DNA from: a virus
IMG/VR virus record: IMGVR_UViG_3300017986_000154
Location: 1 to 22,465 of that record
Length of the DNA: 22,465 nucleotides
Strand: one strand, 5' to 3'
The translations under genes and the position numbers were made by a program. Positions 6,589 through 21,298 of the stretch are shown here, piece after piece; the first letter of the stretch is position 1; each line of letters starts with the position of its first letter. The notes below the pieces were generated by a model. That model worked only from the letters and a program-made list of their open reading frames with translations. It ran no database searches and was not told where the DNA came from.

Positions 6589-6936
6589 ATGGACGAACGC
6601 TTGGAAAAAGCATTAGATATTAGTAACTATATGGTTACATTAAATAACCAAAAACGTTTACTTAAAGAACAACATCAAGAAAATTTAGTCTACTATCACA
6701 ACGGTGGACAATTTAAGGTTACACAACAACTGGTAAGTTTTTGTCAAAGTTTGTTAGCAATGGAACAAACAAGCACTATTCTTGTAGACGATAATGATAT
6801 TCCGGTTGAAGTAACAGATTTAGAAAGTTTTACAAGTTCAGTAGTTAGTAAGTACTTTGAAGCAACTAATACTTATTTCACTGAATATAACAAATTAAAG
6901 AAAAACCGTTCTGTTGAAAGTATAATGGATTTATGA
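6589..6936 (+). CDS. Hypothetical small protein, first gene of the auxiliary operon
   Basis: A 115-residue protein that I do not recognise. It is acidic to neutral and largely predicted helical: residues 1-32 (LEKALDISNYMVTLNNQKRL) and 84-108 look like helices, the latter K/N-rich. No signal peptide or membrane segment is visible. The start is well fixed by a TACGGAG site six bases upstream and a consensus promoter. Its stop overlaps the next ATG (ATGA), so it is coupled to the glycosyltransferase-like gene behind it. As first gene behind a strong host-like promoter it could be an accessory or regulatory partner of the enzymes that follow, but this is position-based inference only. Confidence 0.7.
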   Translation: MDERLEKALDISNYMVTLNNQKRLLKEQHQENLVYYHNGGQFKVTQQLVSFCQSLLAMEQTSTILVDDNDIPVEVTDLESFTSSVVSKYFEATNTYFTEYNKLKKNRSVESIMDL

Positions 6937-7766
6937 GCAAAGGCGTATTATTATTTGCATATAACAACGAAAGCATAGACTATGTAAAGCAAGCTAATTT
7001 CCTTGCCTCACGCATAAGCAAGTATTTAGACTTGCCCACTAGTATTGTGACCGACGTTGATATTGTTGCAAAATATCCAAACTATGTAGAAAACTTTGAT
7101 AAAATTATATTTTTATCATCTGAAACTTTATCAACTAAACGTTATCAAGACGGTGCATTATATAAGACAAAACTTAATTTTAAAAATGCCGGCAGAGAAA
7201 TGAGTTACGAGTTATCTCCTTATGAAGAGACACTTGTAATGGATACAGATTATATTATTGCCAGCAATACATTAAGTAATTGTTTTGTACAACATAAAGA
7301 TCTTTTGCTGTACAAGGATGCAGTACATTTAGGAATCTATAGTGATACTCCTGAATTTAAAACTATCAGCGATACTAGTGTAGACTTTTATTGGGCTACT
7401 GTTATTTTCTTTAGAAAAACTGAATTAAACAAAATTTTCTTTGATCTTGTAAAGCATATCAAGGAAAATTATTGGCATTATAGAAGTGTATTTCAATTTA
7501 GTAATACAACATATAGAAACGACTTTGCATTTAGTATAGCAGCACATATTATGAATGGTTATCAACAAGGTAATTTCGTTGGTAAAATGCCTGGCACAAA
7601 ATTTTATACTATTGATAGAGATGTACTTGTTGATATAACAGACAATACTTTTAAATTCTTAGTTGAAAAAGAAAACAGATTAGGTGAGTATACACTTGCA
7701 CAAATAAAAGACAATGATATACATATTATGAACAAGTTTAGTTTGGAGAGATGCATTGACGACTAA
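6933..7766 (+). CDS. Glycosyltransferase-like protein (GT-A-like, DTD motif)
   Basis: A 277-residue protein. The N-terminal strand KGVLLFAYNN, a middle segment SIVTDVDIV and the motif ETLVMDTDYIIA (DTD at residues 104-106) resemble the nucleotide-sugar domain of GT-A glycosyltransferases, where the DxD binds metal and the sugar-nucleotide phosphates. The next gene has the same layout with TVVMDTDMLV, so the two are distant paralogues. A later YWATVIFFRKTELNKIFF segment matches YSGFHWFKKSELAHEF in the paralogue. It is probably cytosolic, as no signal or membrane segment is visible. Donor and acceptor are unknown; phage DNA, host surface glycan and virion glycosylation are all possible. It overlaps the previous gene by four bases (ATGA). 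Confidence 0.6.
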   Translation: MSKGVLLFAYNNESIDYVKQANFLASRISKYLDLPTSIVTDVDIVAKYPNYVENFDKIIFLSSETLSTKRYQDGALYKTKLNFKNAGREMSYELSPYEETLVMDTDYIIASNTLSNCFVQHKDLLLYKDAVHLGIYSDTPEFKTISDTSVDFYWATVIFFRKTELNKIFFDLVKHIKENYWHYRSVFQFSNTTYRNDFAFSIAAHIMNGYQQGNFVGKMPGTKFYTIDRDVLVDITDNTFKFLVEKENRLGEYTLAQIKDNDIHIMNKFSLERCIDD

Positions 7767-8604
7767 GAACTTTACTTTTTTAGCACAAAATACAGAAAAT
7801 TCAAATTATATCGAACAAGCATGTCTTGCTGCAATGAGTATACATGCTACTAATACTGATGTAAGTATTTGTTTAATTACCAATGACACTGTTCCAGATG
7901 AATATCAGAAGTTGTTTGATCACATTGTAGAAATACCTTGGGGAGATCATGCTGAAAACGAAACATGGAAAGTAAGCAATCGTTGGAAAATATATCATGC
8001 TATTCCTTATACAGAAACAGTTGTAATGGATACAGATATGTTGGTTTTACAAGACCTAACCACATGGTTTGAATTTTTACAAAATTATGATCTGTATTAC
8101 ACTAGCAAAGTACTAACTTATAGAGGCGAAGAAGTATCTGGAACGTATTATCGTAGAGCCTTTGATAAATTTAATTTGCCAAACTTGTACAGCGGATTTC
8201 ATTGGTTTAAAAAATCTGAACTAGCTCATGAATTTTATACCTGGATGGAAATGATAACAAACAACTATCAGCAGTTTTACAAGCAACATGCAGGTGGCAA
8301 AACTTATCAAAATTTTTGTAGTATGGATTTAAATGCAGCTATTGCAGCACGTATTATGGATTGCGAAACACAAATTACAAATACTAGATCGTCGTATCCT
8401 ACTTTTGTACATATGAAATCAAAAATACAAAACTGGAATAACAACTATACCCATCGTTGGCAAGACAATGTTGGAGTATATTTAACAGATGATTTAGTTT
8501 TAAAAATTGGAAATTACAAACAAAGTGGAGTGTTTCATTACACAGAGAACGACTTTGTTACAGAACGCATTGTAAACAAGTATAAAACATATTTAGGATT
8601 ATAA
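7756..8604 (+). CDS. Glycosyltransferase-like protein (GT-A-like, DTD motif), TTG start
   Basis: A 282-residue protein with FTFLAQNTENSNYIEQA at the N-terminus, SICLITNDTVPDEYQKLF, and ETVVMDTDMLVLQDL, with DTD at residues 92-94. This order (Rossmann-like strand, acceptor-loop region, DxD) fits GT-A fold enzymes, close in style to family 8. The start is a TTG at 7756, because GGAGAG (7745-7750) stands five bases before it and no ATG is available in frame near the expected N-terminus; the ATG at 7751 is in another frame. It overlaps the previous gene by 11 bases, so coupling is likely. Specificity is unknown. The general enzyme class is moderately supported. Confidence 0.62.
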   Translation: MTTKNFTFLAQNTENSNYIEQACLAAMSIHATNTDVSICLITNDTVPDEYQKLFDHIVEIPWGDHAENETWKVSNRWKIYHAIPYTETVVMDTDMLVLQDLTTWFEFLQNYDLYYTSKVLTYRGEEVSGTYYRRAFDKFNLPNLYSGFHWFKKSELAHEFYTWMEMITNNYQQFYKQHAGGKTYQNFCSMDLNAAIAARIMDCETQITNTRSSYPTFVHMKSKIQNWNNNYTHRWQDNVGVYLTDDLVLKIGNYKQSGVFHYTENDFVTERIVNKYKTYLGL

Positions 8605-9165
8605 ATGAGTATCACTATAGATCAAAAAAGATATGTCTCGTTTGATAAAAATGGAGTCATTCATAGAATTGGCAGACGTCCTGATGAGCTATTAGATAGC
8701 TTTGAAATTGAGTTTGAAAAAATTCAGCCTATCTTAGACGGCCGTGAAAGATTAATTGATTATATTGTTGATTATGATTTTATTGAAAAAAAGTATGTGT
8801 TGAAATCTCGAATTGAATTTGAAAATGCATATTCTAAAGAAGCGTTTATATATGAAGTGCCTTCAACACTTGATGACGATTATGCTGAAATAAAAATTGT
8901 ACAAGATAATATTAAAAAATGTTGGCGTATAGAAGTACACAAACAGTTAGATAGTTATTTACAAGAACAAAACATTTCGGTTGTTCCGCAAAAACAATTT
9001 TACAGTATAACAAAAAAAGGTGATCCAAATATATTATATCGTTTGTTAAAGTTTGATGGAAACGAAATTCCTTTTGATTACGACTTTGAGTTTGACAATC
9101 TAGACATTAGCATTTATACTATAAGAAGATTCGGATCTTATTTACACGAGGTAATAAATGAGTAA
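8605..9165 (+). CDS. Hypothetical protein in the glycosyltransferase/radical SAM operon
   Basis: A 186-residue protein that I do not recognise. It is acidic, rich in D, E, I, Y and F, with alternating strand-like segments (YVSFDKNGVIHRIG, KKYVLKSRIEF, EIKIVQDNIKKCWRIEV, NLDISIYTIRRFGSYL), which suggests a small beta-rich fold. No signal peptide, membrane segment or catalytic motif is evident. AGGA at 8595-8598 is the ribosome site; the ATG directly follows the stop of the previous gene, and its own stop overlaps the next gene by eight bases. It may be a virion or accessory protein; nothing in the sequence assigns a role. Confidence 0.65.
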   Translation: MSITIDQKRYVSFDKNGVIHRIGRRPDELLDSFEIEFEKIQPILDGRERLIDYIVDYDFIEKKYVLKSRIEFENAYSKEAFIYEVPSTLDDDYAEIKIVQDNIKKCWRIEVHKQLDSYLQEQNISVVPQKQFYSITKKGDPNILYRLLKFDGNEIPFDYDFEFDNLDISIYTIRRFGSYLHEVINE

Positions 9166-10078
9166 CACTTTTCGTGTCGTTGACTACGATATTATATACT
9201 TGAGCTATGATGAGCCTAACGCAGAACAAAACTATGCCGACCTTTGCAAAAAAGTACCTTGGGCAGAACGTGTACATGGTGTAAAAGGCAGTGACAGTGC
9301 TCACAAAGCAGCCGCTGAGAAATCTACCACAGACAGATTTATTACAATCGATGGCGACAATAGAATACGCGATGATTTTCTTACGCAAGTGATCAACTTT
9401 GACGAAAACACAGATTTAACTAATAAAGTTATTAGCTGGACTGCTGAAAATACCATCAACGGACTCAAGTACGGAAATGGTGGCATTAAATGCTGGCCTA
9501 AGCAACATGTACTTAACATGCGTACACATGAAAACGCAGATCCAAACAATCCACATGCACAAGTAGATTTTTGTTGGGATACCGAATATGTTCAAATGAA
9601 TGGAACATTTAGTGACATTTATAATAACGCTACACCAAAACAAGCATGGAGAGCAGGATTTCGTGAAGGTGTTAAAATGGCACTAGATCAAGGCTTGCGT
9701 GTTAGTGTAGAAGATTTCCATAAAAACCATTGGAAAAACTTGCATCGTTTGTATATCTGGCTAATGGTAGGTGCAGATGTAGAAAACGGTCGTTGGGCTA
9801 TCTATGGTGCTAGAGAAGGTTTGTACAAAACAATGTGTACAGACTGGGACTTTATTAATGTACGTGACTTTGACTGGCTCAATGAATATTGGGATAGCAA
9901 AGACATTGATGAAGATCAAATGGAAGAAGATACAGTTGATCTTGGTTACAAGTTAATTGAAGAACTTGATTTGCCTATTGCTGCTGAACCGCTCAACGGT
10001 AATCAAAGTTTGTTCTTTAAAACAGTGTATCAAAATCCTGCACGTGATAACAGCAAACAATTTTTGGATAGAGAATAA
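9158..10078 (+). CDS. Glycosyltransferase-like phage protein (IDGD motif)
   Basis: A 306-residue protein. It begins with YDIIYLSYDEPNAEQNYADL, then RVHGVKGSDSAHKAAAEKS and FITIDGDNRIRDDF, where IDGD at residues 64-67 sits where GT-A enzymes carry their metal-binding DxD. INGLKYGNGGIKCWP follows. The same block recurs as the second half of the protein at 16321 (SYNEPNADENYAKL, RIHGVKG, WIIDGDAQLMDDF, GLVYGYGGIKLFP), so this is a phage family present twice here. I recall T4-like marine phage proteins of this type annotated as glycosyltransferases; the reaction is not proven. The C-terminus is W- and D/E-rich (DFDWLNEYWDSKDIDED), and DFDWL is also at the end of the paralogue. It ends in TAATG, coupled to a radical SAM gene. 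Confidence 0.62.
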   Translation: MSNTFRVVDYDIIYLSYDEPNAEQNYADLCKKVPWAERVHGVKGSDSAHKAAAEKSTTDRFITIDGDNRIRDDFLTQVINFDENTDLTNKVISWTAENTINGLKYGNGGIKCWPKQHVLNMRTHENADPNNPHAQVDFCWDTEYVQMNGTFSDIYNNATPKQAWRAGFREGVKMALDQGLRVSVEDFHKNHWKNLHRLYIWLMVGADVENGRWAIYGAREGLYKTMCTDWDFINVRDFDWLNEYWDSKDIDEDQMEEDTVDLGYKLIEELDLPIAAEPLNGNQSLFFKTVYQNPARDNSKQFLDRE

Positions 10079-11451
10079 TGGAACGTAGCGAAAGCGAAGA
10101 AATCAAACGCATTGATGCTATAACAAAAGAAATTTCTCCTACATTTTGTTTTGCTAAATGGTATCATGCTAACATCTATTTTCAAACAGGCGAAACACAC
10201 AGTTGTTATCATCCTGCTCCTCATAAGATTGATGTAGAAGAAATTAAAACTAATCCTAGTGCAATTCATAACACTGCTATCAAAAAAGCAGAGCGTCAAG
10301 AAATGATGGAAGGTAAACAGTGTGCTGGATGTCAGTATTGCTGGAACATTGAAAACATGGGTGCAGATTACATTAGTGATCGTAAACAGCGTAACCAAAC
10401 TATTTTCTTTAAACATAGACTACAAGCAGTCAAAGAAGGTGGATCGCAGTTTAACGTAAATCCAGAGTATTTAGAAGTGTCATTTGGTAATGAGTGTAAC
10501 TTCCGTTGCGGCTACTGTCACCCTAAAGCAAGCAGTAGATATTATCAAGAAATTGCACAACACGGTCCTTATACTAATGTACGCAACCACCGTTGTGACA
10601 TCGACTGGTTTAACATTTACCCTGAAGAGAACAATCCATACCTTGATGCATTTTGGAGATGGTGGCCTGAGCTTAGTAAAGAGCTTACTATTCTGCGTAT
10701 TACAGGCGGCGAACCTACAATACAGCAAAGTACATATAGATTGTTTGACGCTCTAGATGCAGACCCTAAGCCAGACTTGGAACTTAATTGTAATAGTAAC
10801 TTAGGTGGCAAACCACGTCAATTAGAAAAGTTTACTAACCGTGTAAACGATTTGTTAACAAATAATAAGATTAGACGTTTTAAGTTGTTTAGTAGTATTG
10901 ACACTTGGGGTAAACGTGCGGAGTATATTCGTGATGGACTAGATGTAGAAGTATTTGAACGTAATCTAGATTATTGGATGCGTAACACTACAGCACCTAT
11001 GACACTGATGATTACATTCAACATCTTTAGTGTAACAACATTCCGCAGTTTGCTTGAAAAAATTCTTGAATGGCGTGCCAAGTACAACAATGTTGACACA
11101 TATCGTTGGCAGCGTTTAGGCTTTGACACACCTTACCTTAAGGAGCCATTACAGTATGATATTAATATACTTCCAAAAGAATATATGAGTTACATGCGTG
11201 ATCACTTGCAATTTATCAAAGAAAATGTTGACGATAATCGCAAGGACAAGTTTAGTACTATTGAGTATGAAAAGTTTCGTCGTGTAGTTGATTACATGGA
11301 TAAGACTGAATATCCATTAGAAAAGATTATGCAAGGCAGAGCAGATTTTTATAACTTCTTTACTGAACAAGATAAACGCCGCGGTAATGATTTTAACGCA
11401 GCGTTTCCTGAAATGGCAGACTTTTTTGAACTTTGTAAAAAGTATGTTTAA
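10078..11451 (+). CDS. Radical SAM protein with N-terminal twitch domain
   Basis: A 457-residue enzyme. Residues 140-147 (CNFRCGYC) are the CxxxCxxC motif that binds the radical SAM [4Fe-4S] cluster, and ITGGEP near 208-213 is the SAM-binding GGE motif. Before it, Cys24, Cys43, Cys82 and Cys85 (FCFAKW, HSCYHP, QCAGCQYC) match the layout of the N-terminal twitch domain that carries an auxiliary cluster; the partial gene at 21312 has the same order. Such enzymes reductively cleave SAM to start radical modification of a peptide or other substrate; here the substrate is unknown. It is the last gene of its operon, after an IDGD glycosyltransferase-like gene. Its stop overlaps the stop of the convergent gene (TTAA, 11448-11451). 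Confidence 0.88.
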   Translation: MERSESEEIKRIDAITKEISPTFCFAKWYHANIYFQTGETHSCYHPAPHKIDVEEIKTNPSAIHNTAIKKAERQEMMEGKQCAGCQYCWNIENMGADYISDRKQRNQTIFFKHRLQAVKEGGSQFNVNPEYLEVSFGNECNFRCGYCHPKASSRYYQEIAQHGPYTNVRNHRCDIDWFNIYPEENNPYLDAFWRWWPELSKELTILRITGGEPTIQQSTYRLFDALDADPKPDLELNCNSNLGGKPRQLEKFTNRVNDLLTNNKIRRFKLFSSIDTWGKRAEYIRDGLDVEVFERNLDYWMRNTTAPMTLMITFNIFSVTTFRSLLEKILEWRAKYNNVDTYRWQRLGFDTPYLKEPLQYDINILPKEYMSYMRDHLQFIKENVDDNRKDKFSTIEYEKFRRVVDYMDKTEYPLEKIMQGRADFYNFFTEQDKRRGNDFNAAFPEMADFFELCKKYV

Positions 11452-12035
11452 CTAAACAAAGGAATGGCTTGTTCAGCTTCGGGCCATCTTGCTTCTTTTA
11501 ATAATTCGTACATTCTATCTACATCGATGCGTCTAAATGTTTGGAATGTGCCTTTGTATTCAATTTCAATACTATCAGTAGTAATACCTAGTTTATTTGT
11601 AAAGTACGTCCATACTTTGTGTACACGATCTTGACTGCCTACTCCGCCTTCGTGTGTGCTGATATAAACTGGTTTATCTCTACCTACATGCTCAATACAC
11701 ACAGGTAATAGCATTTGTACAGTGTGATGATTTACCGGACCATTAGCAGGTGCATATACTCTATTACCATCAATATGGTCTCGTATCAAACAAGTTCTTG
11801 CACCGATACGATATGCATCTTTACCAAGTATGCTTAATTCTTTTAAACTATGTACAACACTATTACCAACAATTCGATCATTGTAATAAAGCAAAAACAG
11901 TGTTGCATCTTCGTATTTTGCAATATAATCAATTAGCATTTCCTTACTACTGTTGTTGTAGTATCCGTGCTCTTTTGCGTCTTCGAACCATTGTGTTAAA
12001 TCTTGACTGCCGTCATAGATTTCAAATTTATACAT
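11448..12035 (-). CDS. Putative GNAT-like acyltransferase
   Basis: A 195-residue protein. TLFLLYYNDRIVGNSVVHSL (residues 45-64) resembles the beta-2/beta-3 hairpin of GNAT enzymes, followed by a central strand ARTCLIRDHI and a later VHKVWTYFTNKLGI helix with an IEIEYKGTFQTFRRID strand. The usual acetyl-CoA signature Q/RxxGxG/A is not clear, so the family call is tentative; a GNAT-like fold with another role is possible. It is the last gene of the minus-strand operon and overlaps the halogenase gene by eight bases, with an ACGGAG ribosome site upstream of the ATG. Next to an adenylating enzyme and a halogenase, it could transfer an acyl or aminoacyl group, but this rests on context. Confidence 0.5.
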   Translation of the reverse strand: MYKFEIYDGSQDLTQWFEDAKEHGYYNNSSKEMLIDYIAKYEDATLFLLYYNDRIVGNSVVHSLKELSILGKDAYRIGARTCLIRDHIDGNRVYAPANGPVNHHTVQMLLPVCIEHVGRDKPVYISTHEGGVGSQDRVHKVWTYFTNKLGITTDSIEIEYKGTFQTFRRIDVDRMYELLKEARWPEAEQAIPLFS

Positions 12036-13539
12036 TATGAAACTCCGTTATAAACTGTTTGTAATCTTGTGCGTTCTTCATTACATTATGCATTTGTAAT
12101 TTTCTTATGTCAACAATTTCTTTAAATTTTTTTATTGTTTCTGCAGGAATATCTTTTTTAAACTTATCTATATTTTTAGTCCATCCTGCTGCAAGTTCTA
12201 ACCACATATAATCTGGAAACATAGTCCAGTATTCAACAGCATGTCCTATGTTGTGATATTTGCTGTTGTATTTTTTTAACAGCATATCTACATGGTTTTG
12301 TTCTATGCCTCTTTGACGTTGTGCGTTCCAAAATTCACTTGAACCTTTGTTACAAAGTGTGTAATGCACATCGATAAAATCGGCAATGTCATCAATAGTA
12401 AATCCAACTCTACGATTGTATTCGTCTATGTTGTTATTGTTTAATGCACGTTCAACACCTTTAATAGTTGCAATAGTAATGTATAGTGCATTTGCTTCCA
12501 TTGGTTCAACAAATCCTGCACTCATACCTATTGCAAATGTATTTTGTACTGCTGGTGTTTTGTATCGTTTTGGCTCCCAAGTTATTAATCTAGGTTCTTT
12601 GATATTACGATTTTCTGCTTGTTTTAAAAATTCTTGTTTTGCATCTTCAGGGTCTGTATATCTTGTATCGAATACAAGTCCGCAGCCTTGTCTATTTGTT
12701 AGACCTATTTTAAATATCCATCCGTATTTGTTCCAAATACTTTGTGTATAGTTTTTCATTTGTGTATCGTTGGTATACTCCAACGGTGCAACCCAACTAG
12801 CATTGCCTGGAGTATCGTAATGCACAAATTCGTTAGTTAATTGTCCGATAAGAACTCTATGAAATCCACTAGCATCTATCCAAACATCGCTGGTAACTAT
12901 TTCGCCAGTATCTAATTCTACACTTTTGATGCCATTGTTGATATTTGTTTTAGTTATAGTACCTACTATTTCTTTTACACCGAGATCTTTGCAAACTGTT
13001 TTTAAATATTCTCCTAGTGCTTCTGCATCTATATGATATGCATAACTGTATGGTGTTCCTAAATAACGATTATACATATAAGGAGCCTTAAGGTCTTCCA
13101 TGAAACAATGCAATTGATTGAAATCATCACTAAAATATGTTGATTCGCCATTGCAGTACAAACTTGTCCACACATCGGTAGATCTTATATCATTAGATGT
13201 AACACATTTTATGTCATCCCACGATAATGTTTTATTTTGTAAAACTTTGTCAACTGGTTCGTTATAAGTGAATGCAAAAAAATGTTTAAGATTGTCGTCT
13301 GTCCAATCTTCGAAGCAATTACCATATTTGTAAATGCTGTTTGTTTTTTGCATCCACTGTTGTTCGTCTAGTTCTAAATCATTTAAGAATCTAGTAACAT
13401 AAGGTGTAACACTTTCTCCAACACCAATTGTAGGAACACTATTGCTGTATAACAAACACACATCAGCATTTAATTTTTTCTTCAAGTATGCTGCTGCCAT
13501 TACTCCAGCAGTGCCTGCTCCTACAACTGTTATTTTCAA
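12028..13539 (-). CDS. Flavin-dependent halogenase (tryptophan-halogenase family)
   Basis: A 503-residue enzyme. An FAD-binding GAGTAG stands at residues 7-12. GVGESVTP (39-46) matches the GVGEAT.P motif. YKYGNCFEDW (70-79) contains Lys71, which aligns with the lysine of PrnA/RebH that carries the halogenating species. IDASGFHRVLIGQ follows at 221-233, and AGFVEPMEANALY (341-353) holds the conserved E-P-x-E of the family. The usual GWxWxIP motif is degenerate here: GWIFKIG (273-279). The family uses FADH2, O2 and halide to halogenate tryptophan, phenols or other aromatics; a cyanophage member (VirX1) is known to iodinate varied aromatics. The start is TTG, inside the ANL stop (TTGA overlap), with AAGGA ten bases before it. 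Length fits the family. A partner flavin reductase is not in the window. Confidence 0.9.
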   Translation of the reverse strand: MKITVVGAGTAGVMAAAYLKKKLNADVCLLYSNSVPTIGVGESVTPYVTRFLNDLELDEQQWMQKTNSIYKYGNCFEDWTDDNLKHFFAFTYNEPVDKVLQNKTLSWDDIKCVTSNDIRSTDVWTSLYCNGESTYFSDDFNQLHCFMEDLKAPYMYNRYLGTPYSYAYHIDAEALGEYLKTVCKDLGVKEIVGTITKTNINNGIKSVELDTGEIVTSDVWIDASGFHRVLIGQLTNEFVHYDTPGNASWVAPLEYTNDTQMKNYTQSIWNKYGWIFKIGLTNRQGCGLVFDTRYTDPEDAKQEFLKQAENRNIKEPRLITWEPKRYKTPAVQNTFAIGMSAGFVEPMEANALYITIATIKGVERALNNNNIDEYNRRVGFTIDDIADFIDVHYTLCNKGSSEFWNAQRQRGIEQNHVDMLLKKYNSKYHNIGHAVEYWTMFPDYMWLELAAGWTKNIDKFKKDIPAETIKKFKEIVDIRKLQMHNVMKNAQDYKQFITEFHNV

Positions 13540-14594
13540 AATGTTTGTGTCCTTATAATTTTCTTTAGATTGTCATCTACTGCAATTTCATTTACAGCAC
13601 GTAAACGGAATCTAGGAATATGTTTAAACTGTTCAACAAATTCGCTTTCGTTGTGTATATTACCTGTGTAGTGCAATACACAATGATTGCCTACTTGTTG
13701 GCACAGTGCTAATTCTGCACCTGCAGATACTGCTGCCTTTTCTACTTGTTCAGGATATACTCTAACATTGTTTTGTTTAAACATATTAGGCACACGACCG
13801 TTAAGAGTAAAACGATCGATGTTGCCTTCTACACAATCTCCACTAGTCCACCAAATATCTTGACTGCTCCATTTGCATTGTATTTGATTATCTACAATAC
13901 GAACTTCACAACCTACAGGAACACTGTCTTTGGTATAAGTGTTTTCTTCTTCACTGTACAACACAATCGGTGGAACTTCTGTACTACCGTATACGTTGTA
14001 TACCTTTTGAGCTCCATGTTCACGCAGTTCATCTAACATACCATTTGGAGTAAAGTCGCTTCCGGTAATTAACGTATCACAACTACTGTAATCAATTTCT
14101 TTCCAACGTGGATGTCTATATAATGTTTTCCAGATATTAGGAAGTATTAGTGTGTGAGTAGGTTTAACAGTATTGATTCTATCAATGTAGCTCAATCCGT
14201 TAAAGTTTTCAATGTACAGCTCACATCCTAGCTTTTCTGCTATGAACAAACTTAATGTTGTAAAAGCAATTCCTCTAGGACTGTACAAACTTACAATTCT
14301 ACTATTCTTGTTTAAGTTTAGTAGTTTAATATTGCTATCAACAACTTGTTCAATAGTTTCTCGACTATGTGAAATTCGCTGTGGATGCCCAGTTGTACCA
14401 CTGGTTGTTACATTAAGAAAGCCAGGGCCTTCTTCTCCAATACCGTAGCCTGTGTTGTTAGCCCAAGCATGGAGTGCTCCGTGAATATTGTCTGTCCACT
14501 CTGTGTTGTGTACATCAACGTATTCAGGATCTTGACGTTTGATAATGTCAATGGTATTGCTATCTAGTTGATCGCCGTTTATGTAGATTTTCAT
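13536..14594 (-). CDS. Shortened ANL-superfamily adenylate-forming enzyme
   Basis: A 352-residue protein with the core motifs of acyl/aminoacyl-adenylating enzymes in order: A3 TSGTTGHPQR (64-73), A5 NVYGSTE (200-206), A7 WTSGD (249-253), A8 NGRVPNMFKQNNVRVYPEQVE region (265-285), and an A10-like NLKKIIRT (342-349), in which Lys345 aligns with the catalytic lysine. The family activates a carboxylate with ATP and usually passes it to CoA or a carrier protein. It is about 150-200 residues shorter than usual: only ~60 residues precede A3, so much of the N-terminal subdomain is missing. The A3 lysine is Gln72. No carrier-protein gene is visible in the window. It abuts the gene before it and overlaps the halogenase by four bases, so activation and halogenation of one substrate is a fair inference. 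Confidence 0.85.
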   Translation of the reverse strand: MKIYINGDQLDSNTIDIIKRQDPEYVDVHNTEWTDNIHGALHAWANNTGYGIGEEGPGFLNVTTSGTTGHPQRISHSRETIEQVVDSNIKLLNLNKNSRIVSLYSPRGIAFTTLSLFIAEKLGCELYIENFNGLSYIDRINTVKPTHTLILPNIWKTLYRHPRWKEIDYSSCDTLITGSDFTPNGMLDELREHGAQKVYNVYGSTEVPPIVLYSEEENTYTKDSVPVGCEVRIVDNQIQCKWSSQDIWWTSGDCVEGNIDRFTLNGRVPNMFKQNNVRVYPEQVEKAAVSAGAELALCQQVGNHCVLHYTGNIHNESEFVEQFKHIPRFRLRAVNEIAVDDNLKKIIRTQTF

Positions 14595-14813
14595 TTACTT
14601 CTCGTTGACACAAGCAGGAAAATTCTTTTCCGTGCCATCAGTGATCTTTTTAGCAAGTTTGTAGGGTGTAAACCCAAACATAAAAGGAAAGAACGCATGT
14701 AATATACCCATTACAAATACGCCTAATCCGAGAAAACTATAACACACTGCAACAAAGCAATGTGTAAAATAGTCGGTATTCGCTTTCTTTAAATGATTCC
14801 ATTCAAATAACAT
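14595..14813 (-). CDS. Small membrane protein, DUF6356-like
   Basis: A 72-residue protein. HLKKANTDYFTHCF at 7-20 leads into a strongly hydrophobic stretch at about 19-48 (VAVCYSFLGLGVFVMGILHA, then FFPFMFGFTP), which could be one long or two short membrane helices. The HL...Y..H...A and LHA.FPF(L/M)F pattern matches what I recall of DUF6356, short proteins sometimes annotated as capsule biosynthesis, mostly in marine bacteria and phages. Function is unknown. It has a full AAGGAGG ribosome site and is the first gene behind a near-consensus promoter. The next gene starts directly after its stop. It could anchor or assist the enzymes downstream at the inner membrane; that is inference. Confidence 0.65.
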   Translation of the reverse strand: MLFEWNHLKKANTDYFTHCFVAVCYSFLGLGVFVMGILHAFFPFMFGFTPYKLAKKITDGTEKNFPACVNEK

Positions 14814-14848
14814 ATTAACCTCCTTACCAAGATTTCTAATATGTTATT

Positions 14849-14877
14849 ATTATAGCAAAGAACTTAGTGCAAGTCAA
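14849..14877 (-). promoter_or_regulatory. Sigma70-type promoter of the halogenase operon
   Basis: Reading the minus strand: TTGACT (14877-14872), exactly 17 bases, then TATAAT (14854-14849). Predicted start is near 14842, 29 bases before the ATG at 14813, with AAGGAGG in the leader. The -35 overlaps the last codons of the fibre gene upstream, so the operon can be switched on apart from that gene. Confidence 0.72.
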
Positions 14878-16246
14878 CCCAATTTGAGCCAGTAAATCCT
14901 TGGAATTTTTTAGTATTAGTATTAAAGATAATCATACCTTCTTGTGCAGCCATTGAATCTCTAGTAACAAAGTCTGTTGGCATTGCTCTAAATACATTAG
15001 CACTTGCTACACCATCACCGTTTACACTAAATTTCTTAGACAAGTCTGGACCAAACGCACCATCAAACATTTTAATACTAAATTCACCTGGTAAAAACGG
15101 TGAAGTGTTGTTTATAGGTTTTGATTGATCAACACCAAATTCGATATAACCAATTTTTTTATCTGAATCATCATATGTTGCAGTTGATTCTATTCTTAAT
15201 GTTTTTTGTGATAGATTAATGTTTCCTGGATTACCTTCTGCATCAACGCTTGTAGAGTGGAAAATATAATCTGACAATGCACTAGTTTGTTTTGTGTAAT
15301 GTCTAATTTGTTTGTTAAAAAACTTTAGTGTGCGTAAATCTTCATAGGAACCAACAGATATATTTGCCTGGTTACCAATTATCCAGTCATCGCCTGATTT
15401 TTGCAATACAGACTTACCGTTAGCGTCAGTTATATCACCTTGTAATCTACCTTTGAATACAGGACTTGATTCACCAGGTCTGCCTAAATCAATTACTACA
15501 TTTCCTTCGTAATCCACAACATTTGCTTTTATATATACATCATGACGTTCTGGCCCGCTATTTAAAATAATGTCGCTGCCACTAGCACCAGTCCAAGCAA
15601 TACTACCTAGCCATGCACTTTTATTATTAATATCGTCTATTGCTGTCATAGGTGTATTTTCGTCATATAACAATTGTCCTATTAGACTACCAGTTACATC
15701 ACCTATTGTTCTGCCTATATGTATACCAGTAAATTCACCGTCGAAGTTACCGTTGAAATTACCACTAAACGAACCATACCCATTACCGTTAAAGTCGCCT
15801 TCAAGGCTTCCGTATATTACACTATCGCTGCTCAGTGTACCGTAAAAATTACCAAAAAAGTCTCCGCTAAAACTGTCGGCAATAACACTGCGATTTGCAA
15901 CATCTATTATAGCTTCGTTGAATTCATCAACAATATTACCATTGACATTTGCATACAATGTGTTGTTATCAGCATCTAAAACTATTTCGTTTTCACTATT
16001 GTATACGTCACCGTATAATACACCAGTAAACTGTTTATTTTCTGTATCTAAAATTGTTTCGCCTGCAAGTGTTTCTACATTACCAACTAGTGGTCCGTAT
16101 ACTTTGTTTGCTGCTACATCAACAATTAGTTCACCGTTGTGCCCGACAATGTCAGCTCTGACTTGCCCTGTCCAACTGTCAACAATAATGGTGCTATCAG
16201 CACCTATAATATCTAATCTATACTGATCGCCTGGTATGAATTCCAT
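14864..16246 (-). CDS. Repeat-rich tail-fibre or adhesin-like structural protein
   Basis: A 460-residue protein on the minus strand, away from the main fibre cluster. Residues 11-124 hold five repeats of 20-24 residues, each with an (E/T)-x-I-(I/L)-D strand and a G-(D/N)-(V/I) turn. Residues 125-190 form an x-Phi-x-G tetrapeptide array (SFSG, DFFG, NFYG, SLEG, DFNG and so on). From ~238 a YIKANVVDYEGNVVIDLG unit echoes the first repeat type. The C-terminus, EGMIIFNTNTKKFQGFTGSN followed by W, matches the G...(D/N)......G..W motif in the fibre genes at 1022 and 2948. It is therefore a likely fibre or adhesin subunit. GGAGGAATACC before the ATG is a strong ribosome site, and a late-promoter-like element lies upstream. 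It is acidic, with no signal peptide. Confidence 0.72.
   Translation of the reverse strand: MEFIPGDQYRLDIIGADSTIIVDSWTGQVRADIVGHNGELIVDVAANKVYGPLVGNVETLAGETILDTENKQFTGVLYGDVYNSENEIVLDADNNTLYANVNGNIVDEFNEAIIDVANRSVIADSFSGDFFGNFYGTLSSDSVIYGSLEGDFNGNGYGSFSGNFNGNFDGEFTGIHIGRTIGDVTGSLIGQLLYDENTPMTAIDDINNKSAWLGSIAWTGASGSDIILNSGPERHDVYIKANVVDYEGNVVIDLGRPGESSPVFKGRLQGDITDANGKSVLQKSGDDWIIGNQANISVGSYEDLRTLKFFNKQIRHYTKQTSALSDYIFHSTSVDAEGNPGNINLSQKTLRIESTATYDDSDKKIGYIEFGVDQSKPINNTSPFLPGEFSIKMFDGAFGPDLSKKFSVNGDGVASANVFRAMPTDFVTRDSMAAQEGMIIFNTNTKKFQGFTGSNWVDLH
15677..15874 (-). repeat. x-Phi-x-G tetrapeptide repeat array
   Basis: Residues 125-190 of the fibre-like protein: SFSG DFFG NFYG, one ten-residue interruption ending in YG, then twelve four-residue units with glycine at every fourth position (SLEG, DFNG, NGYG, SFSG, NFNG, NFDG, EFTG, IHIG, RTIG, DVTG, SLIG preceded by the YG end). 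The first and third residues are polar or small and the second mostly F, L, V or I. The regular glycine spacing suggests a tight repetitive shaft or a glycine-helix-like fold. Confidence 0.7.
15875..16216 (-). repeat. Five tandem 20-24-residue repeats in the fibre-like protein
   Basis: Residues 11-124. Unit cores are STIIVD, GELIVD, GETILD, NEIVLD and NEAIID, each followed by 6-9 residues and then a DIVG, LVGN, LYGD, VNGN or SFSG turn. The last three units are 24 residues each. The even spacing fits a beta-solenoid shaft. Confidence 0.7.
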
Positions 16247-16285: not shown

Positions 16286-16314
16286 TTGACAGCAATGTGC
16301 ATATATTATATAAT
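16286..16314 (+). promoter_or_regulatory. Perfect-consensus sigma70 promoter for the 16321 operon
   Basis: TTGACA (16286-16291), exactly 17 bases, TATAAT (16309-16314). The predicted start point, seven bases after the -10, is 16321, the A of an ATG. This rules out the ATG at 16297, which lies inside the promoter, and implies a leaderless mRNA. Confidence 0.78.
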
Positions 16315-16320
16315 TACTGT

Positions 16321-17355
16321 ATGTATGATGTTTATTTTATAGGCGATCCGTCTGAACAATTATTTTTAGATTTGAAACAATTAGTGCCTATGGCCAAATG
16401 TGCAAGCACAGTGCCAGAAGCAAAACAAAGATGTTTAACCAAGTTTGTTTGGATTGTATATAACAATCTAGTAGTAAAAGACGATTTTGAATTTGATTAT
16501 GTACCAGATGATTATAGTCAAGATATAACACACGTTTTTTTAAACGGCAACTTTTATGATGGCATAGCACTGATGCCTAAAAACAGTCATCACGGGCCTG
16601 GCGAATTAAAAGCACGTTTTTATATTAATAAAAAATTTGTTGAAATACAAGCAAGTGAACCGGTTGTTAGTGATTTTGATAAAGTTTTTATCAGTTATAA
16701 TGAGCCAAATGCTGACGAAAACTATGCAAAATTATTAGAACGTTTTCCAGATGTAAAACGCATACACGGTGTTAAAGGTATTCATCAAGCACACATTGCC
16801 GCAGCAAGTTTATGTGAAACAGAAATGTTTTGGATTATAGACGGCGATGCACAATTGATGGATGATTTTGCATTTGATTATATTCCGGAACATCATAATA
16901 AAGGTGCTGTCCATGTGTGGAGAAGTTTGAATCCAGTAAATGGGTTAGTATACGGCTACGGTGGTATAAAATTGTTTCCTACAGAACCAACTCTAATGAT
17001 GGATACAAGCAAACCTGATATGACAACAAGTATTAGTGACAAGTTTGTAGCTATGAATAAAATTTCTAATATTACTGCTTTTAATACTGATCCATTTAAT
17101 ACGTGGAAAAGTGCGTTTAGAGAATGTGTTAAATTAAGCAGTAAAGTAATTGATAGACAAAAAGATGAAGAAACAAATAAAAGATTGAGAACATGGTGTA
17201 CGTATACAGAAAACAATCCTGCTTTTGGTGAATATGCATTAAAAGGAGCAAAAGCTGGTGCTGCTTATGGTGCTCGCTATAGAAACAATACCAACGAATT
17301 GAAACGTATCAATGATTTTGACTGGCTAAAGGAAAAATTTGATGGAAATATTTGA
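16321..17355 (+). CDS. Two-domain glycosyltransferase-like protein with a degenerate first copy
   Basis: A 344-residue protein from the chosen ATG at 16321. Residues ~118-345 match the protein at 9158: SYNEPNADENYAKL, RIHGVKG, WIIDGDAQLMDDFAFDYIPE, GYGGIKLFP and, near the end, DFDWL. Residues 2-90 are a diverged copy of the same domain: DVYFIGDPSE aligns with KVFISYNEPN, and WIVYNNLVVKDDFEFDYVPD with WIIDGDAQLMDDFAFDYIPE. In the first copy the metal-binding IDGD has become VYNN, so that copy is probably not catalytic. The longer start at 16297 is rejected because it lies within the promoter and adds residues outside the domain. No ribosome site precedes the ATG. The substrate is unknown. It overlaps the methyltransferase gene by 14 bases. 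Confidence 0.65.
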   Translation: MYDVYFIGDPSEQLFLDLKQLVPMAKCASTVPEAKQRCLTKFVWIVYNNLVVKDDFEFDYVPDDYSQDITHVFLNGNFYDGIALMPKNSHHGPGELKARFYINKKFVEIQASEPVVSDFDKVFISYNEPNADENYAKLLERFPDVKRIHGVKGIHQAHIAAASLCETEMFWIIDGDAQLMDDFAFDYIPEHHNKGAVHVWRSLNPVNGLVYGYGGIKLFPTEPTLMMDTSKPDMTTSISDKFVAMNKISNITAFNTDPFNTWKSAFRECVKLSSKVIDRQKDEETNKRLRTWCTYTENNPAFGEYALKGAKAGAAYGARYRNNTNELKRINDFDWLKEKFDGNI

Positions 17356-18382
17356 ACTAGTTGACAGATTTGAAATCTTATATCCTGATCAAGAAGTATT
17401 TGCTGACATACGCAGAGCATACATTGATAAAGATTTAACAAGTATATTTCGCATAGACGACAAAGACGAATTACGAAAAGCTATCGTAGAAAAAAATATA
17501 CACAGTATTTTTCGTTGTGTAGATAACAAACGATGTGTAGGCGAATTAGAAGATCTACGCAAAGCAGTTATTGAACATAATTTACACAGCTTGTTTAGAC
17601 TACTTCCAGGCAATGAAGATTTGCGTAAGGCTGTTACTGAAGATAATATGCATAGTTTGTTTAGGGTACTAGGAAACGAAGATCTTAAAAAAGTTGTAAT
17701 GGATGACAACAAATGGAGTTTGTTTAGACTTTACGAAAAGTACACAGATACAAACTTTGTAAATGCATTTAGAACTTTTATGCGAGATGAAATACCTTAT
17801 GATAGTGATTGTTTCAGTAGAGGACAACTTCAGAGTAAACTGTGGTTAGTAAATGAATTATCTAAATTAGATGTAAAACTTGGAACAGTATTTTTATGTG
17901 CAGGCTGGTATGGCACACTAGCAACTATGCTTTTTGAAAGCAACATCGATTTAGACAAGATTGTAAGTTTTGATATTGATCCAACTGTAAGGACTGTTGC
18001 TGAAATTTTTAACAAACCATGGGTAACTGATGGTTGGAAGTTTAAAGCAGTAACACAAGACATACACGAAATACGTTTTGAAGAGCACATATACGATGTG
18101 TTAAAAAATGACGGTACCACAGAAACACTTTGGGATACGCCAAACACTGTTATTAATACAAGTACTGAGCATATTGAAGATTTTGCATCTTGGTATGAAA
18201 AAATACCCGCTGGCACATTGGTTATTATGCAAAACAATGATTACTTCGAAATTGATGAACACGTAAATTGTAGTAAGACATTGTACGAGTTTGAACAAAA
18301 GACACCGATGACACAAGAGTTGTTTAGTGGTAAATTGCAATTAAGAAAATACAAAAGGTGGATGAGAATTGGATATAAGTAA
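17342..18382 (+). CDS. Putative SAM-dependent methyltransferase with N-terminal repeat array
   Basis: A 346-residue protein. The C-terminal half looks like a class I methyltransferase: GTVFLCAGWYGTLATMLF (181-198) as the glycine-rich SAM loop, KIVSFDIDPT (206-214) with the acidic ribose-binding residue, and later TVINTSTEHI (269-278) and LVIMQNNDYF (293-302). Before it lie five copies of a 16-residue motif, consensus (D/E)LRKAV.E.N.HSLFR, at residues 22-37, 43-58, 71-86, 93-108 and 114-129, probably helical and perhaps for binding a partner. The start is ATG 17342 with AAGGAA upstream; a TTG one codon earlier adds nothing. The methylated substrate is unknown. It belongs to the operon from 16321 and overlaps the small gene behind it. 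Confidence 0.7.
   Translation: MEIFELVDRFEILYPDQEVFADIRRAYIDKDLTSIFRIDDKDELRKAIVEKNIHSIFRCVDNKRCVGELEDLRKAVIEHNLHSLFRLLPGNEDLRKAVTEDNMHSLFRVLGNEDLKKVVMDDNKWSLFRLYEKYTDTNFVNAFRTFMRDEIPYDSDCFSRGQLQSKLWLVNELSKLDVKLGTVFLCAGWYGTLATMLFESNIDLDKIVSFDIDPTVRTVAEIFNKPWVTDGWKFKAVTQDIHEIRFEEHIYDVLKNDGTTETLWDTPNTVINTSTEHIEDFASWYEKIPAGTLVIMQNNDYFEIDEHVNCSKTLYEFEQKTPMTQELFSGKLQLRKYKRWMRIGYK
17405..17728 (+). repeat. Five tandem LRKAV..N.HSLFR repeats in the methyltransferase
   Basis: Five 16-residue units separated by 5-12 residues: DIRRAYIDKDLTSIFR, ELRKAIVEKNIHSIFR, DLRKAVIEHNLHSLFR, DLRKAVTEDNMHSLFR and DLKKVVMDDNKWSLFR. The middle three are most alike and the outer two are diverged, as expected for an array grown by internal duplication. 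Confidence 0.85.
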
Positions 18383-18593
18383 TTTAAGTGTACGTGAGTT
18401 GCAAAAAGAGAGTGCAAGAGCATTGAGTACTATGCAAGCCACAAACAATAACATACACCAATTTAATAAAAAAGCACATCATAACAGTCATAATTGGTAT
18501 ATTGCAGTTATTGAATGGTATATTAGCCAATACGGCGGATTGCCAAGTCACGTAGGTCCTGGTAAAGATGTAAAGTTGGTATGTGATGTATAA
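18369..18593 (+). CDS. Small hypothetical protein upstream of radical SAM pair
   Basis: A 74-residue protein from a TTG at 18369 with AAGGTG upstream; it overlaps the methyltransferase by 14 bases. It is not recognised. The N-terminal half is polar and helical (LSVRELQKESARALSTMQAT), then comes an N/H-rich segment (NNNIHQFNKKAHHNSHNWY), an aromatic stretch (WYIAVIEWYISQY) and a short tail beginning GGLPSHVGPG with one cysteine near the end. Its stop overlaps the start of the radical SAM gene. A gene this small and directly before two SPASM-like radical SAM genes might encode a partner or substrate peptide, but no leader/core signature is clear. An ordinary phage hypothetical protein is the safer reading. 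Confidence 0.6.
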   Translation: MDISNLSVRELQKESARALSTMQATNNNIHQFNKKAHHNSHNWYIAVIEWYISQYGGLPSHVGPGKDVKLVCDV

Positions 18594-19665
18594 GTACGAA
18601 GATATACGTGTTATTCATTTAGAAAATACACAAAACTGTCAAGCAAGTTGCCCTATGTGTGACCGTAGTCAAAACGGCGGTGCATTAAATCCGCACATTG
18701 ATCTTAGTGAACTTACACTTGAAGATGCTAAACGTATTTTTGAACCGGATTTTATCAAACAACTTAAAACAATGTATATGTGTGGTAATCTAGGGGATCC
18801 TATTGTTGCTAATGATACATTAGAAATATTTGAATACTTTAGAGAGCACAACAAAGACATGTGGCTTTCTATGAATACTAATGCAGGAGCAAGAGATGAA
18901 GAATGGTGGAAACGACTGGCTAATACCTTTGGCCGTATGGGGGCTGTTATATTCAGCGTCGATGGCCTATCTGATACTAATCATATTTATAGGCAGGGAG
19001 TTAACTGGGCTGCGGTAGAACGCAGTATGCGAGCATTTATCTCTGCTGGAGGTAGAGCTCGTTGGGACTTCCTTATATTCGAACACAACCAACATCAAGT
19101 TGAAGAAGCCGAACGCATTGCCAACGAATGGGGATTTGAAAAGTTTGTTGCTAAAAAGACTGGTCGGTTTATGACTGCTAGTAGTGAAAAGAAAGAATCA
19201 CATCAAGCAGTAAACCGCAAAGGCAAAGCAACGTCTCAACTTAAAAAGCCTGATGAAAAATATCAAAATGTCGCTATTAAACAATATGACAAGGTAAAAG
19301 AAAAACACGGTAGTATGGATGCATATTATGACCGTGCCGAAATACACTGCAAGGTAAAAGACGAAGGCAACTTGTTTATTACAGCAGAAGGACTTGCATT
19401 ACCGTGTTGTTGGACAGCCGGGCGTATGTACAAGTGGTGGCATCCTAAACCACAAGTAGAACAAATTTGGGATTTTATTGATGCTGCCGGAGGCAAAGAT
19501 GCAATTAATGCTAAAAAACATGGTCTAAAGGCTGTATTTGAAACTGGTATATTTGATAGCATTGAAGAAAGTTGGACTAAAGCAAGTGTTGCAGAAGGCA
19601 AGCTCAAGGTATGTTCAATGAAATGCGGCAAAGAATTTGATCCGTTTGGAGCACAGTTTAAGTGA
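18586..19665 (+). CDS. Radical SAM protein with SPASM-like C-terminal cysteines
   Basis: A 359-residue enzyme. CQASCPMC at residues 18-25 is the CxxxCxxC cluster motif. YMCGNLGDP (64-72) stands where GGEP lies in other members, and SVDGLSDTNHIYR (124-136) is a typical mid-barrel segment. Cys255, Cys274, Cys275, Cys343 and Cys347 form a C-terminal cysteine set that suggests one or two auxiliary iron-sulfur clusters, as in SPASM or twitch domains. The next gene repeats the same layout. Members with such domains often modify peptides or proteins, but the target here is unknown. ATG 18586 is chosen because it begins MYKYEDIRVIHLEN and the GTG one codon before adds nothing; no strong ribosome site is seen, so coupling to the previous gene is likely. 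Confidence 0.87.
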   Translation: MYKYEDIRVIHLENTQNCQASCPMCDRSQNGGALNPHIDLSELTLEDAKRIFEPDFIKQLKTMYMCGNLGDPIVANDTLEIFEYFREHNKDMWLSMNTNAGARDEEWWKRLANTFGRMGAVIFSVDGLSDTNHIYRQGVNWAAVERSMRAFISAGGRARWDFLIFEHNQHQVEEAERIANEWGFEKFVAKKTGRFMTASSEKKESHQAVNRKGKATSQLKKPDEKYQNVAIKQYDKVKEKHGSMDAYYDRAEIHCKVKDEGNLFITAEGLALPCCWTAGRMYKWWHPKPQVEQIWDFIDAAGGKDAINAKKHGLKAVFETGIFDSIEESWTKASVAEGKLKVCSMKCGKEFDPFGAQFK

Positions 19666-20705
19666 TACGCAAAGTAGAGTTAGAAATTACCAGTGATTGT
19701 AATGCAGCCTGTCCAGGGTGTGCTAGAACACTGAATAAAGAATTGTTGCAAATAAGTTCATTTACGTTGCAAGATTTGCAACGTATTTTTCCTGTTGCTG
19801 ATTATACAGGTGTTGAGTTTAAGTTTTGCGGTGTATTAGGTGATCCTGCAATGAATGTTGAGTGCGTAGACATGGTTGAGTACTTAACAGGGTTAGGTGG
19901 ATATTGTGAATTAAGCACTAACGGTGGTGTACAAACTGCTGAGTGGTGGGAACGCATGGGTAAAATTAGTTCTATACATCCCGGACTTGTACACATACAT
20001 TTTTGTATTGACGGACACAAAGAAACTAATCATATCTATCGTGTAAATACTAAATGGAATGTAGTAGAACGTAATATTGCAGCATACGCTCAAGCAGCAC
20101 CAAATCATACTGCTACTTGGATTTACATTATATTTGATCATAATGAACATGAATTGGAAACTGCTAAAACACATGCAACAGTATTAGGTTTTGATTTTGC
20201 TACACGCACAGGTATGCGTAACAGTTATCACGATTGGGTAGCACAGCTAGGCAAGAAAAACAACAAACAAACAAAAGTTATAACTACAACTGGTTCCAAA
20301 GAACATAGTAAAAAGGAAGTTGTAAAAGACCTTGATAAATTTATTGCAGAGTACAAAACAAAACGTGCAAGTGACAATAAAACTAAAGAAATTTTAAATA
20401 GCATTGTATGTAAATACATACATGAAGATGAAATTTTCATAGCCAGTGATCAAACTATGTGGCCTTGTTGTTTTCTTTGGGATAGTGCATTTAAAAACAA
20501 AGAAGGCATACTAGACAAACTTAATCAATTTGAACCTAATTGGAACAGTCTAAAACATCACAGCATAGCTGAAATTCAAGAGCATCCGTGGTTTAAAGAA
20601 CTTTTAGGTGCAAGTTGGGATCCTACTCATGAATTACATTTTAGTAGATGTATAAGAACTTGTGCTAAAAACAAAGCATATCACAACGAGATAACATATA
20701 CATGA
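19662..20705 (+). CDS. Radical SAM protein, paralogue of 18586-19665, GTG start
   Basis: A 347-residue enzyme. CNAACPGC at residues 13-20 is the CxxxCxxC motif. KFCGVLGDP (54-62) replaces GGEP as in its neighbour, and IDGHKETNHIYR (116-127) matches VDGLSDTNHIYR there. Cys250, Cys269, Cys270, Cys330 and Cys334 reproduce the C-x18-CC and C-x3-C layout of the upstream protein, so the auxiliary cluster region is conserved and the two are a tandem duplication. The start is GTG at 19662, overlapping the previous stop (GTGA), with GGAG ten bases before. The substrate is unknown; two paralogues side by side may act on the same target or on each other's product. Confidence 0.87.
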   Translation: MIRKVELEITSDCNAACPGCARTLNKELLQISSFTLQDLQRIFPVADYTGVEFKFCGVLGDPAMNVECVDMVEYLTGLGGYCELSTNGGVQTAEWWERMGKISSIHPGLVHIHFCIDGHKETNHIYRVNTKWNVVERNIAAYAQAAPNHTATWIYIIFDHNEHELETAKTHATVLGFDFATRTGMRNSYHDWVAQLGKKNNKQTKVITTTGSKEHSKKEVVKDLDKFIAEYKTKRASDNKTKEILNSIVCKYIHEDEIFIASDQTMWPCCFLWDSAFKNKEGILDKLNQFEPNWNSLKHHSIAEIQEHPWFKELLGASWDPTHELHFSRCIRTCAKNKAYHNEITYT

Positions 20706-21298
20706 GTCTTTTTTATATACACAAAAATAAAAAAGAAAAAACAATTATATTTTGTCCTCCAAAATGTGGTAACAGGACATTGATTCGTGCAGGATTAACG
20801 CAAACCGATGGTGTACTAAAAAGACATAAAAGAGTAATAATAATACGTGACCCTTTAAAAAGACTAATCAGTGCATATTTCTTTATGTCCCGTGCAGGAA
20901 AGTTATCAGTTAACTGGGGCAACGGAAACACAATACCGTCTCATGAGCATTTAACCAAGCAAACCTTTAATGCTTGGATTAGAAATAATTTGTATGTTAA
21001 TGAAAAATGGTGTGATGGACACGTAATTCCTCAAACAACATATTATAAACAGTCAGGAATCAAACATTTGCAAAATTGGACACCTATACCTACATATAGT
21101 TTAGGAAAATTTTTAAATGATTTAGATCCTGAAAATATAAATCAAGATATTATAGCAAATAAAACAGAAATAAAATGGATATGGGCGGACGAAGAACTTT
21201 TTGATAACGACAGTAAAATTATATATGAAAAATTATATCATGATGATATACAGTTGTATAAAGAGTTTCTAAAAAGAGTAGACCAACAGTACAGGTAA
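20702..21298 (+). CDS. Sulfotransferase-family protein
   Basis: A 198-residue protein. TIIFCPPKCGNRTLIRAG (14-31) fits the 5'-phosphosulfate-binding loop of PAPS-dependent sulfotransferases (PKxGTT-like, here PKCGNRT). RVIIIRDPLKRLISAYFF (44-61) matches the 3'-phosphate-binding motif R-D-P-x-x-R-x-x-S-x-Y. These motifs are at the usual spacing for the carbohydrate-type (Sulfotransfer_2) enzymes, though the protein is short. It would move sulfate from PAPS to a hydroxyl or amine, probably a glycan in the company of the glycosyltransferase-like genes. No signal peptide or membrane anchor is visible, so action in the cytosol is likely. It overlaps the previous gene by four bases (ATGA). Confidence 0.78.
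   Translation: MSLFYIHKNKKEKTIIFCPPKCGNRTLIRAGLTQTDGVLKRHKRVIIIRDPLKRLISAYFFMSRAGKLSVNWGNGNTIPSHEHLTKQTFNAWIRNNLYVNEKWCDGHVIPQTTYYKQSGIKHLQNWTPIPTYSLGKFLNDLDPENINQDIIANKTEIKWIWADEELFDNDSKIIYEKLYHDDIQLYKEFLKRVDQQYR

Follow-up and report, generated by a model that had tools for sequence, protein, structure and literature searches.

What would a tailed phage do with an operon that combines an acid-activating enzyme, a halogenase and an acyltransferase-like protein? This question is raised by the IMG/VR virus record IMGVR_UViG_3300017986_000154, a stretch of 22,465 bases (the window) that is probably a fragment. Between positions 11448 and 14877, its minus strand carries four tightly packed genes, whose predicted products are a DUF6356 protein, a compact enzyme of the ANL superfamily, a flavin-dependent halogenase and a GNAT-like protein. 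An earlier inspection of the letters alone (the sequence-only reading) had interpreted them as a self-contained route through which a carboxylate is activated, halogenated and transferred. Our analysis points to a different emphasis: the operon may represent a modular acyl-activation and acyl-transfer unit of large marine tailed phages in which the halogenase is optional, a reading that we put at a probability of about 0.5. It is built on gene content and order, promoter conservation, sequence motifs, predicted folds, cassette exchange and the joint occurrence of ANL and GNAT genes at two loci.

Examination of the open reading frames confirmed that the four-gene minus-strand operon is genuine and, as had been claimed, free of gaps. 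The gene for the small DUF6356 membrane protein (72 residues; 14595–14813), which is preceded at a distance of 5 bases by a Shine-Dalgarno sequence (AAGGAGG; 14819–14825), abuts directly (0 bases, TAAATG) on the gene for the ANL enzyme (352 residues; 13536–14594). The stop codon of the latter overlaps the TTG start codon of the halogenase gene (503 residues; 12028–13539) by 4 bases, and the halogenase gene in turn overlaps by 8 bases the gene for the GNAT-fold acyltransferase-like protein (195 residues; 11448–12035). A candidate sigma-70-type promoter with an extended −10 region (TTGACT-17-TATAAT; 14877–14849, minus strand) heads the operon; it matches 11 of the 12 consensus bases and has a TG in front of the −10 region. 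Promoter-like sites are no more frequent in this region (15) than in shuffled sequences (16.3). However, the −35/−10 pair following the tail gene was kept in all 14 loci that we compared, regardless of whether DUF6356 or ANL comes next, and this conservation provides good evidence that the predicted promoter is real. In two of these loci (L029 and L074), a copy of GGTTGACTTACAC (−35) lies just downstream of the tail gene and outside its coding sequence; in the others, the −35 element sits within it, and in the window it is contained in the last codons of the flanking tail-fibre-like gene (14864–16246, minus strand). Pairwise ratios of non-synonymous to synonymous substitutions (dN/dS) were 0.02–0.11 for DUF6356, ANL and GNAT and 0.24–0.32 for the halogenase; judged by this measure, purifying selection acts on each of the four genes.

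In the window, the operon occupies a slot between the tail-fibre-like gene, located upstream on the same strand, and the convergent gene for a twitch-domain radical S-adenosylmethionine (SAM) protein (10078–11451, plus strand; NCBIfam NF033640, E = 7e-91), which overlaps the GNAT gene by 4 bases and is conserved beside it. We scanned IMG/VR with the ANL, GNAT and halogenase sequences and recovered 60 contigs with a GNAT gene, to which the locus L086 was added; many of these 61 slot contigs are near-copies, so that the following figures are contig counts and not independent events. GNAT was present in every slot found. The arrangement ANL-halogenase-GNAT occurred in seven contigs (one of them cut within the halogenase gene), while 42 contained ANL and GNAT without a halogenase, with two types of ANL that share just 42–44% identity. 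GNAT stood alone in 10 contigs, on the opposite strand and straight after the radical SAM gene; it was accompanied by a TauD-type oxygenase in one contig and by a halogenase without an adjacent ANL in another (L086). In the TauD-containing slot (L071:5286–7008), the oxygenase gene and a gene for a 218-residue protein take the position of ANL and halogenase before GNAT. DUF6356 comes and goes independently (it is absent from L002, L008 and L024), and the halogenase gene, where it is present together with ANL, has been inserted precisely at the ANL-GNAT junction.

Comparison of closely related phages revealed how the halogenase gene moves. The DNA of L003, which has a halogenase, and that of L005, which lacks it, is 92% identical up to the end of the ANL gene and 97–100% identical starting within about 140 bases past the GNAT stop codon. 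Between these borders, the halogenase is present in one and absent in the other, and the GNAT alleles differ (56% amino acid identity). Halogenase and GNAT allele have hence been exchanged as one block with borders at gene ends, and this between phages that are otherwise 83–100% identical. L003 and L024, on the other hand, share the halogenase-GNAT-radical SAM stretch at 98–100%, while their ANL genes are mosaic (75–100% identity, depending on the stretch). Taken together, these two exchanges tie the halogenase closer to GNAT than to ANL. On the GNAT tree, the halogenase required three changes and the upstream module six; this rules out that the halogenase strictly tracks the GNAT allele and indicates an association by cassette.

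A second locus, present in the same and in other large phages, carries the same combination of genes in a very divergent form. Contig G025, whose slot holds ANL and GNAT, possesses a further cluster at 34000–41500 (L193) with the order radical SAM, P450, GNAT, halogenase (395 residues), ANL (255 residues) and B12-type radical SAM, i.e., a contiguous GNAT-halogenase-ANL trio. A scan with the radical SAM protein of L193 hit at least 594 contigs, from which 80 loci were kept. GNAT was found in 12 of these 80 loci, and a minimal ANL (225–255 residues) in the same 12; since the profiles stemmed from loci other than these, except for L193, the remaining 11 cases are not circular. The GNAT families of slot and second locus are related, because slot-GNAT profiles match six of the 12 second-locus proteins (E = 1e-7 to 2e-9). 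DUF6356 was detected in 10 of the 12 loci with ANL and GNAT (two confirmed over the Pfam cut-off) and was missing from all of the remaining 68; it stands between GNAT and ANL in overlapping reading frames in L221, L222, L238 and L268. A halogenase was likewise confined to loci with ANL and GNAT (two of 12, namely L194, which corresponds to the L193 trio, and L249, versus none of 68). Judged from the slot layouts and from this co-occurrence, the conserved unit is ANL plus GNAT, usually with DUF6356, to which an interchangeable putative tailoring enzyme is added.

Several features of the second locus deserve mention in their own right. The radical SAM family of L193:302–1414 is highly conserved, being present in no fewer than 594 contigs of viruses, of which the longest exceeds 300 kb; in the loci that we read, its gene stands at the head of an island of variable enzyme content. 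GNAT and ANL are immediately preceded by a gene for cytochrome P450 at L193:1414–2661 (Pfam-confirmed), where a halogenase gene follows, and at L199:11112–12359. Examples of the minimal ANLs are L249:17283–17981, L221:4026–4712 and their relatives. L223 and L272 additionally encode full-length ANLs (470–475 residues), two of which (470 and 475 residues) are adjacent in L272:15948–18768, and in L249:13562–17286 genes of the class IV aminotransferase and IMP dehydrogenase/GMP reductase types are clustered with GNAT, DUF6356, halogenase and ANL.

Halogenases of the same subfamily also occur free-standing. In 25 contigs (L163–L187), a related protein of 547 residues is encoded after gp47-gp46, flanked on one side by a small gene and on the other by an endonuclease-like gene, with no ANL beside it; a further copy is present in L116:4473–6116, and the cyanophage S-B64 halogenase gene is likewise located directly after recombination endonuclease genes. 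Nor was an ANL neighbor found beside the annotated halogenases of cultured phages that we examined. Neither the expectation that ANL always adjoins the halogenase nor the view of the four genes as an obligate unit is supported, given the 42 slots with ANL and GNAT only and the gp46-side copies in other phages. What survives of the direct coupling of ANL to the halogenase and an acyltransferase-like gene is one common promoter, the halogenase-GNAT cassette and the divergent trio of L193; the halogenase itself is facultative. Among the contigs that span both slot and gp46 site, two had a copy in the slot while the gp46 site was empty (G001, G008), three had a gp46 copy but no slot copy (G005, G021, G026), and two had neither ANL nor halogenase (G006, G013). 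Hence, exactly one halogenase was present when ANL was present (5/5) and none when it was absent (2/2). In G013 and G026, the gp46 site lies close to the end of the contig, the absence in G013 resting on about 300 bases, and with seven contigs and a single ANL-less group this pattern is suggestive only. The ANL of G008 is a canonical enzyme of 460 residues encoded elsewhere, in a phage island (L115:155–11084) that also contains thiolase, sulfotransferase, nitroreductase, aspartyl/asparaginyl hydroxylase-like and radical SAM genes.

The window ANL matches PF00501 (E = 1.3e-16) and contains the A3, A5 and A7 motifs together with the A10 lysine; T64-SGTTG-P71, YGSTE, SGD253, GR267 and K345 are invariant in 18 distinct sequences, and Lys345 lies in NLKKIIR. 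Its N-terminal domain is not complete, since only ~62 residues (~30 in the 329-residue type II enzyme) precede the P-loop, compared with about 120–180 in typical relatives; a Pfam search did not detect AMP-binding_C (PF13193). The structural model (predicted local distance difference test, pLDDT, 78) matches MenE, McbA and aryl-CoA ligases (E about 1e-15), and acyl-coenzyme A (CoA) ligases are the best family matches. By motifs and fold, we regard this protein as an adenylating enzyme, whose activity is predicted. The GNAT-like protein lacks a Pfam family over cut-off, and an NCBIfam search returned nothing useful; its model (pLDDT 85, predicted template modeling score 0.85) adopts a GNAT fold (Foldseek probability 1.00, E = 2.8e-6), with matches that include acetyltransferases among the top ones, the CoA-dependent acyl-homoserine-lactone synthases BjaI and RpaI, and FeeM. 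FeeM, an N-acyl amino acid synthase (PF21926), is also weakly matched by the sequences of 11 of 22 GNAT members (best E = 0.0047). DUF6356 lies over the Pfam cut-off (PF19883; 34.7 versus 24.4 bits).

The halogenase exceeds its Pfam cut-off by far (PF04820; E = 3e-77, 260.9 bits versus 21). It has the FAD-binding motif GxGxxG in the form GAGTAG and keeps GVGES, and its Lys71 (SIYK71YG) and Glu348 (EPME348A) align with the catalytic positions of solved halogenases, which we take to correspond to K79 and E346 of PrnA. The protein is therefore predicted to be a flavin-dependent halogenase with halide- and FADH2-dependent activity. The WxWxIP motif is replaced by GWIFKIG; this motif is absent or varied in other halogenases too (PMC8407142). 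As the sequence-only reading had noted, phage halogenases of this family are already known, an example being VirX1 of cyanophage Syn10, which has been characterized with a set of test compounds (PMC8407142); the window subfamily, however, forms a separate clade. Within it, monophyly of the slot halogenases relative to the gp46 copies received a tree support of only 58/32. As for the wider setting, the surroundings of the operon (window positions 6933–10078 and 16297–21298) hold paralogous pairs of sugar-transferase-like genes (recognized by eye, without Pfam match), two further radical SAM genes and a sulfotransferase gene.

In the modular unit that we favor, the compact ANL would adenylate a carboxylic acid and pass the acyl group to CoA or straight to an acceptor, and the GNAT-fold protein would join it to an amine acceptor as an amide. 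DUF6356 would probably place the ANL-GNAT pair at the membrane, and the halogenase, using FADH2 from the host, could optionally halogenate the acid or the acceptor, coming and going with particular GNAT alleles. Envelope glycans or aminolipids, phage structures or free small molecules are candidate acceptors. We infer every chemical step of this scheme: adenylation, the amide product, membrane placement and a substrate common to ANL, halogenase and GNAT. As the sequence-only reading had stated, no carrier protein is apparent (PF00550 in none of 10 long relatives, all possibly incomplete), and a flavin reductase (PF01613) was not found in the phage records searched, which may be incomplete as well; both absences fit transfer via CoA or directly, and host-supplied FADH2. 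Of the self-contained activate-halogenate-transfer route, the ANL motifs, the halogenase lysine and glutamate, the GNAT fold and the single promoter stand, while the halogenase, missing from most slots, does not belong to its core. An extension of this scheme, in which the trimmed ANL gives its acyl-adenylate directly to GNAT at the membrane without CoA or carrier, and the phages swap halogenase, TauD and P450 enzymes much like tail fibers so as to alter which chemical group is installed, strikes us as doubtful.

A number of observations weigh against the modular unit. Most slots lack a halogenase, and those with GNAT alone or with TauD and GNAT indicate that ANL is not always needed nearby; the ANL-less contigs spanning both halogenase sites all come from one related group. 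The 12 second loci represent about five sequence types and hence fewer independent cases, and their minimal ANLs end at the GR of motif A8, without C-terminal domain and A10 lysine. With respect to GNAT, the one member score seen for PF21926 was 14.9, below the cut-off of 27; an RxxGxG/A CoA pyrophosphate loop was not seen by eye between strand 4 and helix 3 of the aligned members; and an assignment as acyl-homoserine-lactone synthase was dropped after hhalign against one Roseobacter phage enzyme found nothing.

The strongest competitor, a realistic minority view, regards the halogenase as a passenger in a slot of variable content where unrelated enzymes accumulate, and as acting on a substrate of its own independently of ANL and GNAT. 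Its absence from most slots, the 25 contigs with copies alone beside gp46, the cultured-phage halogenases without an ANL neighbor and the acceptance of TauD by the slot all agree with this; the joint swap of halogenase and GNAT allele with borders at gene ends, the second, divergent trio, the restriction to ANL- and GNAT-containing second loci and the single copy per ANL-positive contig spanning both places do not. Rather unlikely, in our estimation, is a variant of the modular unit with another acceptor, in which the product is a diffusible N-acyl amine such as an N-acyl amino acid, serving as a signal or bioactive molecule instead of an envelope or virion decoration. The weak FeeM similarity and the structural matches to FeeM, BjaI and RpaI would suit it, but the FeeM match is under the curated cut-off, no exporter was seen, and the tail-fiber, sugar-transferase-like and sulfotransferase surroundings fit decoration of the envelope or virion. 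We consider it unlikely that one promoter merely drives separate activities, in which case ANL, as an acyl-CoA ligase, would act on fatty or aromatic acids of the host, and GNAT would draw on the host's acetyl-CoA to acetylate a protein, a sugar or a small molecule. Acyl-CoA ligases and acetyltransferases do rank among the best matches of the two proteins, and 10 contigs have GNAT without ANL; however, divergent ANL and GNAT co-occur in 12 of 12 cases at another locus, GNAT is without the canonical CoA loop, and minimal ANLs devoid of a C-terminal domain are unlikely to form CoA thioesters. That the reading frames are decaying or arose by chance, for which only their compact size speaks, is practically excluded by dN/dS values of 0.02–0.32, invariant catalytic motifs and the conserved promoter.

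The families to which the enzymes belong have been described before; what appears to be new is the phage module and the modular way in which it is used. Neither a DNA match nor matches to the ANL, GNAT and radical SAM proteins were found in 50,697 phage records, and scans of genome contigs with peptide patterns, whose reach is limited to sequences with the chosen patterns, yielded no relative of ANL or of GNAT from cellular organisms. PADLOC gave no match for any of the four genes, and a defense role was set aside. In the literature, with most subscription journals outside the search, we found no description of a phage halogenase with an ANL or acyltransferase, or of a phage ANL-GNAT or DUF6356 module, DUF6356 itself being mentioned in a single paper. 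To our knowledge, no native substrate or pathway has been established for any marine phage halogenase; a recurrent module for activating and transferring acids, located next to a separate clade of phage halogenases, supplies a specific candidate pathway that is open to assay, and phages that are nearly isogenic but differ in having the halogenase can be compared as a natural experiment. For DUF6356, to which no function has been assigned, a strong functional link emerges. If the role of the module is to decorate the envelope or the virion, it would be the chemical equivalent of switching tail fibers.

How does this unit relate to known systems? Like VirX1 and the tryptophan halogenases of cyanophages and pelagiphages, the window halogenase belongs to PF04820, has GxGxxG and a PLE-type glutamate motif, and its subfamily shares tail or gp46 neighborhoods of T4-like marine phages; unlike them, it reads WIFKIG in place of WxWxIP, adjoins ANL and GNAT, which none of the annotated cultured-phage halogenases examined does, and forms with the slot relatives and gp46-type copies a separate clade (support 100/100), at <30% identity to these known halogenases. 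The window ANL has the fold and the A3, A5, A7, A8 and A10-type motifs of MenE, feruloyl-CoA synthetase, 4-chlorobenzoyl-CoA ligase and the amide bond synthetase McbA, but the phage enzymes (352 or 329 residues) are shortened before the P-loop, and PF13193 is undetected. In the way they would work, acid activation by ANL followed by amide formation on a GNAT fold, the pair resembles FeeM, BjaI or RpaI fed by an acyl-CoA ligase; membership of the GNAT sequence in these families is unsupported, with FeeM below cut-off and no match to the phage synthase. In bacterial carrier-protein halogenation, as in pyoluteorin-type pathways, an ANL enzyme, a carrier protein and a halogenase act together. The phage operon likewise unites an ANL enzyme with a flavin-dependent halogenase, whereas PF00550 was found in none of 10 long relatives, and GNAT and DUF6356 stand in place of the carrier.

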